From assembly GCA_022705575.1 (NCBI GenBank), contig JAKJED010000006.1:1-39029 (forward strand): 39,029 nucleotides of DNA, read 5' to 3'. This document shows positions 20-30,208 of this stretch, one piece after another. The notes beneath the pieces were generated by a model that did not search any database, was not told the origin of the DNA, and saw nothing but the letters and a program-made list of their open reading frames with translations. The stretch comes from Patescibacteria group bacterium (lineage in GTDB: Bacteria > Patescibacteriota > Minisyncoccia > RBG-13-40-8-A). The position numbers and the translations under genes were made by a program. Positions within the stretch are counted from its first letter, which is position 1; the number at the start of each line of letters is the position of its first letter.

Positions 20-712
20 CTATTCTAATACTAATTCTCTCATGCTACCTATTTCCATTTCTTTCAGCCACTTATTTATGCTTTGTTTATATTTTTCTTC
101 CCCGCCAAATATATCTAATAATAATTTCCTATCTGTTACTGAAGGAAAATTTTTGATATTCGAATAATCCATATGACTAGACCACCTATATTGATTTAAA
201 AAATTTATTGCCTTGTTATAATTATTTAATTTTCTCTCTCGCCATTCTGGAAATTCAAGATCCAATGGATTAAGATGAATATAATATGGAAGATTTAAGA
301 AGTGATTCGATTTGCTTACTAAAATTGCCTTATAGCGACTCTCAAAAAGAGTGCCCTTGCGTTTATGTTTTTGATTAAAATATTTCGCATAAGCCATATT
401 CAGTTTCTTCATAAATTTCGGAATCCCGTTTTCTGTTGAAGGACTCAATAATAAATGATAATGATTGGGCATTAGACAAAAAGCGTGAATATTCGCCAAT
501 AACTTTCTTAGTTCTCGTTTAATATGTGGACTTGCGATGTCCACATATTTATTCTGACTTTCAAATTTTTCAAGATTATAATGAGTCGTATAAACTACTT
601 TCTGATTATTAAGAACAAATAAATTATGAATAAACCTAAAATAATCTCCTTTATCAAGAAATATTTTCCGCTTGTCTACTCCTCTACTTAGTACATGATA
701 AATTTCACTCAT
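20..712 (-). CDS. REP-associated (IS200-like, Y1/HUH) tyrosine transposase
   Basis: Single-strand DNA transposase/nickase of the Y1 family (TnpA_REP type). The HUH motif is visible as MPNHYHLLL (His84 and His86) and the catalytic Tyr is expected in YIHLNP (about residue 143). FESRYKA is the usual conserved stretch between them. At 230 aa it has a normal length. I start at the Met of MSEIYHVLSRG rather than three codons upstream, because the second copy near 30 kb begins MAEIYHIL. The C-terminus is very similar to that copy (PSVTDRKLLLDIFGGEEKY shared). Residues about 55-64 are encoded by a perfect hairpin that recurs upstream of the gene. The 3' end is close to the window edge, so a left flanking hairpin cannot be seen. 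It appears intact. Confidence 0.9.
   Translation of the reverse strand: MSEIYHVLSRGVDKRKIFLDKGDYFRFIHNLFVLNNQKVVYTTHYNLEKFESQNKYVDIASPHIKRELRKLLANIHAFCLMPNHYHLLLSPSTENGIPKFMKKLNMAYAKYFNQKHKRKGTLFESRYKAILVSKSNHFLNLPYYIHLNPLDLEFPEWRERKLNNYNKAINFLNQYRWSSHMDYSNIKNFPSVTDRKLLLDIFGGEEKYKQSINKWLKEMEIGSMRELVLE
521..549. repeat. Hairpin inside the transposase coding sequence
   Basis: Perfect 11-bp inverted repeat (arms 521-531 and 539-549, core GTGGAC/GTCCAC) with a 7-nt loop TTGCGAT. It is translated in frame as roughly YVDIASPHI within the transposase, just before the HUH strand. The 19-nt core occurs again in inverted orientation at 745-763, between this gene and the upstream glycosyltransferase. 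Confidence 0.85.
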
Positions 713-744
713 ATTGTACATATTGTAAATTGTTAACTAAATTG

Positions 745-763
745 GTGGACATCGCAAGTCCAC
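745..763. repeat. Flanking REP-like hairpin of the first transposase
   Basis: GTGGAC-ATCGCAA-GTCCAC hairpin (6-bp stem, 7-nt loop), the exact reverse complement of the 19-nt core inside the transposase gene. It lies about 30 bp upstream of the transposase start and 3 bp past the stop codon of the glycosyltransferase, so it probably marks one end of the mobile unit. Confidence 0.8.
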
Positions 764-766
764 ATA

Positions 767-3314: not shown

Positions 3315-3356
3315 CCAAAATAATTAACCCCGCAAATGCGGGGTTAATTATTTTGG
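3315..3356 (-). terminator. Intrinsic terminator after rnpB
   Basis: Nearly perfect long palindrome: AATTAACCCCGC, loop AAAT, GCGGGGTTAATT, extended by CCAAAA/TTTTGG arms, so a T-run follows the stem in the minus direction. It sits exactly at the 3' end of RNase P RNA. Confidence 0.85.
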
Positions 3357-3721
3357 GCAAACAATAAGCCGAATTCTGTAATCCCGCTGAACGGGACCGA
3401 TGATCATTTATCTGATCTCGACATTACTGTCGGATTCAAGCGAACTACCGTTTCACTAACAAAAATCATAAACATTTTTATTAGATACTTGTTCTTGCAC
3501 CTACCTAGAAATTTAGCCCCAACGCTCTTACGAGGTCGGGGTCCCTGACTTTTACGTCGGGACCGTTTCACTCTCCGATTTTCATCGGAGCATCGTCACT
3601 GTTCGCATCCCTATCCTTACGGACGACGGGTGTTACCCGCTAGGCTTCTGCTCTATTTTATTAAAGCAAGTGTTCGGACTTTCCTCTCCGATTAAAATCG
3701 GAGCGATCATCTTGTTTGCCC
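3355..3721 (-). ncRNA. rnpB: RNase P RNA, bacterial type A
   Basis: Catalytic RNA that matures tRNA 5' ends. On the minus strand it contains the conserved 5' element GAGGAAAGTCCGAACAC (after hairpin P3) and the 3' element ACAGAATTCGGCTTAT. P1 is formed by GGGCAAACA at the 5' end pairing with TGTTTGCCC at the 3' end. The P3 hairpin (3686-3703) and a P12-like hairpin (3573-3590) share an identical 7-bp stem, CTCCGAT/ATCGGAG. A GGTCCC...GGGACC hairpin fits P13. About 367 nt, a usual size. It is followed by a strong terminator and lies between an RNase HI gene and the polysaccharide genes. Confidence 0.95.
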
Positions 3722-3727
3722 GATTAT

Positions 3728-11703: not shown

Positions 11704-11763
11704 TTTCCCGACGTTCTGATTTTACATCAGAAGTCGAGACCCCAACCATTTTATGCGTCGGGG
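11704..11763. repeat. Palindromic repeat family, copy A (between secY and adk)
   Basis: Outer stem CCCGACG (11707-11713) with CGTCGGG (11756-11762); directly inside it a hairpin TTCTGAT-tttac-ATCAGAA (11714-11732), then GTCGAGACCCCAACC. Its flanks align with 14040-14100 inside rpsE: CTTTCCCGAC-N-TTCT is shared on the left, and about 22 of 32 bases match on the right, with only transitions as differences. Confidence 0.7.
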
Positions 11764-13508: not shown

Positions 13509-14147
13509 TTATGATAATTTTTTCAATGCTTCGATCGCTGCTTGGGCATTATTCAGTTTATTGGTTGTTCTGCCGATAATTTTTGAAACCACGTTTTCAA
13601 TTCCGGCCAAATTACAAATTATACGCACCGCTCCTCCGGCAATAATTCCTCTACCTTCCTGCGCCGGCTTTAACATTACTTTCGCTGCGCCGAATTTTGC
13701 TTCTACCATTTGAGAAATTGATTTGTTTTCAGTAATCGGAATTTCAATTAAGGCTTTTTTTGCCTGATTGACCGCTTTATCAACAGCAATAGTTACATCT
13801 GCTCCTTTAGCCACGCCAACACCAACCTTACCTTTTTTATTGCCAATAACAACCATTGCCCTAAAATTAAATCTTCTCCCTCCGGCAACCATTCTTGCGG
13901 TTCTTCTGATGTCTAAAAGTTTTTGTTCGAATTCCGATTTTTCTTCTTTCTTGCCATCGCGTCTTCTGCCATCACGTCCGCCTCCTCTGCCTTGTCCGCC
14001 CCTGCCAGTTTTTTTGTCAAATCTATCTGTTTTTATTTCTTTCCCGACATTCTCCGTCGCAGACGGAGCAGTCGGAACCTCGACCGCTTCATGCGTCAAG
14101 ATTGTTGTATTTGTTTCTATTTCCTCTTTTTTTGTATCTTCTTCCAT
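13509..14147 (-). CDS. rpsE: 30S ribosomal protein S5 with palindrome-encoded N-terminal segment
   Basis: uS5, decoding fidelity and translocation. The core begins near EFEQKLLDIRRTARMV and contains GGRRFNFRAMVVIGNKKGKVGVGVAKG, all diagnostic. 212 aa, longer than the usual ~165 because of an N-terminal tail. The tail has an acidic start, a segment LTHEAVEVPTAPSATENVGK (residues 17-36) encoded by palindromic repeat copy B, and a Gly/Arg stretch GRGGQGRGGGRDGRRR. The repeat is in frame and free of stops. Sits between rplR and rplO. Confidence 0.95.
   Translation of the reverse strand: MEEDTKKEEIETNTTILTHEAVEVPTAPSATENVGKEIKTDRFDKKTGRGGQGRGGGRDGRRRDGKKEEKSEFEQKLLDIRRTARMVAGGRRFNFRAMVVIGNKKGKVGVGVAKGADVTIAVDKAVNQAKKALIEIPITENKSISQMVEAKFGAAKVMLKPAQEGRGIIAGGAVRIICNLAGIENVVSKIIGRTTNKLNNAQAAIEALKKLS
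14040..14100. repeat. Palindromic repeat family, copy B (inside rpsE)
   Basis: CTTTCCCGAC-A-TTCT, hairpin CTCCGTC-gca-GACGGAG (14052-14068), then CAGTCGGAACCTCGACC and ATGCGTC. CCGAC (14044-14048) also pairs with GTCGG (14071-14075). It aligns with 11704-11763 over both flanks while the hairpin sequence itself differs but stays paired. Translated as part of the S5 N-terminal tail. Confidence 0.7.
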
Positions 14148-29510: not shown

Positions 29511-30197
29511 TTATTCTAAAATCAACTCTCTTATATCGCCTACTTCCATCTCTTTTAGCCATTTATTTATGCTCTGTTCGTATTTCTCTTCTCCACCGAA
29601 TATATCTAATAATAATTTTCTATCCGTAACTGACGGAAAATTCTTTTTACCACAATAATCTAAATGACTAGACCATCTATAATTATTCAAATACTCTATT
29701 GCGTTATTATAATTTTTTAACTTTCTTTCTCTCCATTCTGGAAATTTAATATCCAATGGATTTAAATGAACATAATACGGAAGATTAAGAAAATGATTAG
29801 ACTTGCTAATCAAAATTGATCTATAACGACCCTCAAAAATAGTTCCTTTACGATTATATTTTTTATTATAATATCGAACATAACCAGCGCCGAGTTTTTG
29901 CATAAATTTTATAATTCCTCCTTCTTTCATTTCACTTATTAGTAAATGATAATGGTTTGGCATCAAACAAAACGCATGAATATTAACTAATAATTTTCTC
30001 GGCTTTTAAAATTTTGGTCCTTCAAGGACGTAAGATTGATTTTTAATTTTTTGATTAAAATAATACGATAACGTATTAACAAGGCCTTCATTATTAAATT
30101 CAAATAAATCATGAATAAATCTAAAATAATCTTTATCATCTAAAAATATTTTTCTTTTATCCGTAGATCTATTCAAAATATGATAAATTTCTGCCAT
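29511..30197 (-). pseudogene. REP-associated tyrosine transposase interrupted by one in-frame stop
   Basis: Second Y1/HUH transposase, about 70% alike the first copy by eye. The reading frame is continuous from MAEIYHILNRSTDKRK (30197) to the end, except for one TAA at 30006-30008. The stop comes just after the internal hairpin (SYVLEGPKF-stop-KPRKLL), before HUH MPNHYHLLI and YVHLNP. Without readthrough the first product is 63 aa and lacks the active site; a restart at the TTG at 29966 would miss part of the fold. It may be a recent pseudogene or a sequencing error. It sits between the two halves of the ComEC system. Confidence 0.85.
30017..30029. repeat. Hairpin core inside the second transposase
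   Basis: GTCCTTCAAGGAC, the core of the flanking 31-nt palindrome, in frame in the coding sequence (peptide VLEG) at the position equivalent to the hairpin in the first transposase. Confidence 0.75.
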
Positions 30198-30208
30198 ATA
30201 TTATAATT

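Follow-up and report, generated by a model that had tools for sequence, protein, structure and literature searches.

A putatively mobile double-hairpin element lies in frame in the ribosomal protein S5 gene of a Patescibacteria bacterium and recurs in other essential genes

The rpsE gene of a Patescibacteria group bacterium, located in the 39,029-nucleotide stretch of DNA analysed here (hereafter the window), contains in the part encoding the N-terminal tail of ribosomal protein S5 a palindromic double hairpin that belongs to a dispersed, multi-copy family (Table 1). This segment is probably an in-frame insertion of a non-autonomous mobile element. From the features described below, we infer that the family is mobile, that it would most likely spread as single-stranded DNA folded into a hairpin, on which an enzyme able to recognise such hairpins would act in trans, targets reading ...AG^CT... 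being preferred, and that the insertion in S5 was neutral. Because none of the reading frames through the conserved stems contains a stop codon, copies that keep the reading frame would persist within genes where the protein has loops, hinges or disordered tails, such as that of S5.

Table 1. Element copies, their hosts and RAYT-like genes in the window
Feature	Position	Strand	Remarks
Double-hairpin element in frame in rpsE	14042..14101	(-)	S5 N-terminal tail, residues ILTHEAVEVPTAPSATENVGK
rpsE, ribosomal protein S5, 212 aa	13509..14147	(-)	probable insertion host
Second element copy	11706..11763	(-)	secY-adk spacer
Third element copy	3517..3562	(-)	element-like P13-P14 of RNase P RNA
RNase P RNA gene (class A)	3350..3722	(-)	hosts the third copy
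Y1 (HUH) RAYT-like transposase gene	20..721	(-)	carries another palindrome of its own, both within the ORF and flanking it; not linked to the element
Second RAYT-like gene, frame-broken	29511..30199	(-)	flanking palindromes TATTTGGTCCTT-N-AAGGACCAAATA; not linked to the element

The initial annotation had recognised a palindromic repeat inside rpsE and a copy of it upstream of adk, and both are real and located where it placed them. Their extent had to be redrawn: the two copies stand, but each consists of two abutting hairpins, and the stretch taken for a right flank is the hairpin other than the one first recognised, which gives the spans listed in Table 1. On the S5-coding strand, the rpsE copy reads TCTTGACGCATGAAGCGGTCGAGG-TTCCGACTGCTCCGTCTGCGACGGAGAATGTCGGGA and its second hairpin contains a nested inner hairpin, CTCCGTC-TGC-GACGGAG; in the adk-spacer copy, the terminal GTCGGGA directly adjoins AAGGATT-ATG of adk. 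As had been noted, the inner hairpins of the two copies differ in sequence and keep their pairing, and the seven mismatches in the so-called right flank are all transitions. This last pattern arises from the stem of the hairpin that had been taken for a right flank: compared with CCCCGAC/GTCGGGG, this stem in the rpsE copy differs by a single C-G to T-A change plus G-T wobbles, and the transitions between the copies correspond to G-U or compensatory changes in it. Pairwise alignment of the rpsE and adk-spacer regions gave a score of 44, and in a control against the window a shorter query scored 40 versus a best score of 38 among 60 shuffled queries; since this alignment taken alone is modest evidence, the larger family decides. 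A DNA similarity search with the rpsE copy alone matched only itself because the loops differ, and a search of plasmids returned conserved ribosomal-protein matches only.

Elements of the family are composed of two abutting inverted units, YYCCGAC-G-[variable but paired loop]-GTCGGRR, arranged head-to-head. Each hairpin has a stem of 7 bp (YYCCGAC/GTCGGRR), a G bulged next to it, and a variable loop that pairs with itself and whose length ranges across the family from 3 to about 30 nt. The bulged G follows the stem in 244 of 268 units (91%), and the loop is paired beside the bulge in 220 of the 268, versus 63 after shuffling, while 189 of the 268 loops are distinct and copies within one genome almost never have common loops. 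In the rpsE copy, the long inner hairpin occupies the position that is taken in other copies by a nested smaller unit (CTCCGAC..GTCGGAG at loci L062 and L094, TTCCGAC..GTCGGAA at L041, and another at L064). Covariation was assessed on 192 elements whose choice ignored pairing at the three outer positions: Watson-Crick pairs account for 90.6% of cases at outer pair 1, versus 50.5% expected if the two sides were independent (Fisher p 7e-65), and for 94.0% at outer pair 2, versus 74.2% (Fisher p 3e-40); the copies are not independent events, so these p-values overstate certainty, but the effect is still large. Together with the inner pairing, this covariation bears out the earlier proposal that selection acts at the level of structure. 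Concerning the molecule under constraint, RNA or folded single-stranded DNA, the occurrence of copies in protein genes, tRNA genes and spacers favours DNA; G-U pairs in some copies leave open a constraint at the RNA level. The flanks are also biased, with A at position -2 in 63% and G at position -1 in 49% of cases (both ends pooled) and a preference for CT in the outer 3' flank.

The suspicion that the repeat belongs to a dispersed family proved correct. When at most two mismatches are allowed, the junction pattern GTCGGGRYCCCGAC occurs at 8 places in the bacterium's own genome, versus 0 for a reversed-pattern control, and a covariance model built from 29 copies gave 17 strand-wise matches in this 0.66-Mb genome, corresponding to about nine sites, in genes and in spacers, of which one is the third copy in the window. 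The rpsE and adk copies were part of the training set, making their own scores partly circular, and the RNase P RNA copy was not. Four copies lie in frame in rpsE, gatB (..NDPLVPTVVGIPTEVGKPNINIC..), dnaG (..GRIFESAPTQLGRGSDYYVGGKYVNTPET..) and one further gene without assignment; outside protein genes, copies are located in the RNase P RNA gene, in the spacers that precede adk and rplJ, and in one adjacent to rplK.

Scanning 84,980 species genomes with a strict pattern led to the detection of at least 118 stretches. Among the 80 loci listed, 62 come from genomes named as Patescibacteria, 8 from Omnitrophota (two of them in the complete genome of Velamenicoccus archaeovorus), 9 from MAGs labelled 'bacterium' and 1 from a Methylomirabilis MAG. 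The strict form is present in 11 of 379 genomes sampled evenly across the phylum. With the covariance model, up to about 30 sites were detected in other Patescibacteria and zero in many genomes, and 2 of the 6 genomes of the bacterium's own family have no match; the element is most abundant in the G243- and G244-like lineages and in Velamenicoccus archaeovorus. The strict pattern matched none of 2.9 million viral contigs, on which ground carriage by phages was rejected. No earlier description of the family was found in the literature searched, which included only a minority of subscription journals.

In the rpsE product, the S5 domain defined by Pfam starts only at residue 73, so that the segment of 21 residues falls within the tail. 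It is absent from 35 related S5 proteins, five from the same family and 30 from the order or class; in the closest relative, which is 85% identical from residue 61 onward, the tail is just about 25 residues long. With this absence and the further copies in the genome, neither of the two findings that the initial annotation had named as refuting its reading was obtained. The absence also makes it very likely that the segment was inserted into a variable tail, as judged from sequence comparison with genomes of the same family or more distant, none of the same genus. The proteins identified by Pfam as hosts of other copies include PolA, LigA (two cases), RNase R, a FAD-linked oxidase, EF-G, SerRS, PheT, a TPP enzyme, a Pif1-like helicase, MurB, SecA, GatB, DnaG and L7/L12. 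The element corresponds to extra residues when GatB and LigA are compared with their solved homologues (3h0l and 2owo, respectively), and in EF-G the extra residues lie between TCFW and NIIDTPGH by comparison with 1dar. The hinge of L7/L12 received two separate insertions, in different families and with different elements (L029 and L321). At the start of rplL in one of these loci (L029, ~1640-1690, genome G003), the N-terminus of L7/L12 from a relative has the peptide SAEASAG, whose coding sequence reads alike on both strands and which may be another palindromic insertion. The length of the element is divisible by three in 28 of 42 copies inside genes versus 38 of 72 between genes, which is a trend only. 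A role of the element as a terminator was rejected because many copies lie inside genes.

Copies also occur in or near RNA genes. In RNase P RNA, the element-like sequence corresponds to P13-P14; a relative (G001) has the same form with the same loops, which match the usual GUAA-type, and in another lineage (L064) a different, nested element is present at P13-P14, near position 3664 of the minus strand of that locus. The loci compared for this region also include L263 (1347-1700). P13-P14 could thus be either a target or a source of the element. The strict elements are enriched upstream of tRNA genes: 20 of 121 lie within 120 nt upstream of such a gene, versus 1.2 expected (about 17-fold), and 4 of 121 lie downstream, versus 1.3 expected. 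Most of the tRNA-linked elements are located within a truncated extra tRNA 5' end, usually after nucleotide 10 (..TAG^CTCAG..), followed some 12-32 nt further on by the intact copy of the same tRNA (truncated 5' ends were observed at L028, L034, L043, L050, L078, L082, L088, L113, L114, L149 and L150). Direct repeats between the two flanks were detected at 36 of 266 ends, versus 1 of 264 controls, mainly at tRNA genes. For single-strand transposition of the IS200/IS605 type, in which a Y1 enzyme cuts and rejoins the folded strand, the expectation would be a clean insertion that leaves the target unduplicated; the observations are mixed, with no target duplication in most copies but duplication at these 36 ends, where it may be that only duplicated tRNA sites survive. 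At tRNA sites, either an insertion survives only if a duplication has rescued it, or the insertion and the duplication arise together in one event.

Several known systems resemble the element. TnpA-REP recognises GTAG together with stem bulges and cleaves at CT (PMC8266576), and intragenic REPs in housekeeping genes, as well as repeat families without a dedicated transposase, have already been described (PMC3733652). The element has in common with REPs and REPINs its short hairpin pairs in inverted, head-to-head orientation, its irregular stem and its dispersed, sometimes intragenic, distribution; the AG of its flank and the CT beyond its other end likewise echo the REP foot and the CT cleavage site. 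This likeness raises the possibility that the element is a true REPIN, mobilised by the RAYT (Y1 HUH) transposases of the genome itself, which encodes three of them, two in the window. We consider this unlikely. GTAG is present at only 14 of 242 element ends, only the AG being common; the loops are hypervariable, the hairpins are not separated by a spacer and the stem sequence is different. None of the RAYT genes examined is flanked by the element: those of the genome are each flanked by a perfect palindrome of another sequence, which in two of the three cases is also present inside the ORF, and CCCGAC hairpins are absent from all Patescibacteria RAYT loci examined. The element and Y1 transposases do not co-occur either: a Y1 transposase is encoded by 8 of the 14 genomes that bear the element and by 13 of the 27 that are poor in it, and no Y1 match was obtained in G132, G165 and G244, three near-complete genomes rich in the element. 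The RAYTs of the genome are thus not supported as the mobilising enzyme, and neither the RAYT loci nor the Y1 co-occurrence analysis revealed a cognate enzyme. Concerning the RAYT-like genes themselves, the second one in the window is broken across reading frames and has a decayed appearance; the GGTCCTTNAAGGACC palindrome recurs within and around it. Perfect flanking palindromes, which differ from gene to gene and are repeated inside several ORFs, are a feature of Patescibacteria RAYT-like genes (window 20-764; L031 1201-1990; L190, L193, L196 and L205).

With Rickettsia palindromic elements (RPE) and CGTC REPs, the element shares the presence of in-frame palindromes in housekeeping proteins and of no known transposase. 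In CGTC REPs, the stem is 8-9 bp long and begins with A-T pairs, the loop measures 4-5 nt and there is a CCA tail (PMC3733652). In contrast, the stems of the element start with YYCC and carry a bulged G, its loops reach about 30 nt, its outer 3' flank prefers CT in place of a CGTC tag and CCA tail, and its hosts are Patescibacteria and Omnitrophota. The family thus appears to work like a REP dimer or a Rickettsia palindromic element, and its sequence matches neither; as the way of working is common but the GTAG tag, a cognate RAYT and the CGTC features are absent, we placed it under neither. Integron attC sites are folded single-stranded hairpins that are recognised by their structure and present extrahelical bases and variable terminal loops. 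The element resembles them in its hairpin structure, extrahelical base and variable loops, but consists of two abutting hairpins, and no cassettes were seen.

The near invariance of the stems, combined with loops that differ at every locus, even within one genome, could also be explained if the element were a functional site maintained by selection, for protein binding, segregation, DNA uptake or RNA processing, and not mobile. The enrichment upstream of tRNA genes and the occurrence in P13-P14 of RNase P RNA would fit such a site. Its distribution is however patchy, many genomes lacking it altogether, the S5 site is not common to relatives, and the copies within protein domains, like those within extra tRNA copies, resemble the products of insertion, all of which make this explanation improbable. 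Finally, although the S5 tails of relatives vary in length and composition, it is hardly credible that the S5 segment is an ordinary low-complexity tail resembling the repeat by chance, given that it encodes the family signature VPT...VG, that its junction is among the 8 matching places in the genome, that TTCCCGACRTTC occurs twice in the window versus 0.00 expected (100 dinucleotide shuffles) and that the family model gives it 31.5 bits (E 4e-6 in the window, a partly circular score).

Insertion of a non-autonomous mobile element therefore remains our preferred reading of the rpsE segment. The rarity of common loops between copies of the same genome counts against it, unlike what is found for ordinary copy-and-paste repeats. 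In a more speculative version, which we propose only tentatively, the mobile family would be defined by structure alone, the 7-bp stem and bulged G being fixed and the loops remade at nearly every copy as new palindromes, sometimes as nested units. Duplication coupled to insertion would then restore the target and spare tRNA genes, the enzyme would not be a RAYT, and the family could have originated from P13-P14 of RNase P RNA or repeatedly replaced it.

Among the Patescibacteria and Omnitrophota are organisms whose genomes are very small, and such genomes are believed to contain little spare DNA. The presence of a seemingly mobile repeat inside ribosomal proteins, EF-G, DNA ligase, DNA polymerase I, SecA, RNase P RNA and extra tRNA copies suggests that the reach of selfish repeats in minimal genomes extends into essential genes. 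Such copies could provide natural insertion maps indicating where essential proteins tolerate added residues. They might also mark exchange between two phyla that are only distantly related, and they give a direct starting point in the search for a hairpin-recognising enzyme.

Near-identical neighbouring copies of the element were observed at two loci, 364 nt apart in L277 (1209-1272 and 1573-1636) and 142 nt apart in L295 (1225-1273 and 1367-1415), which point to local tandem duplication.
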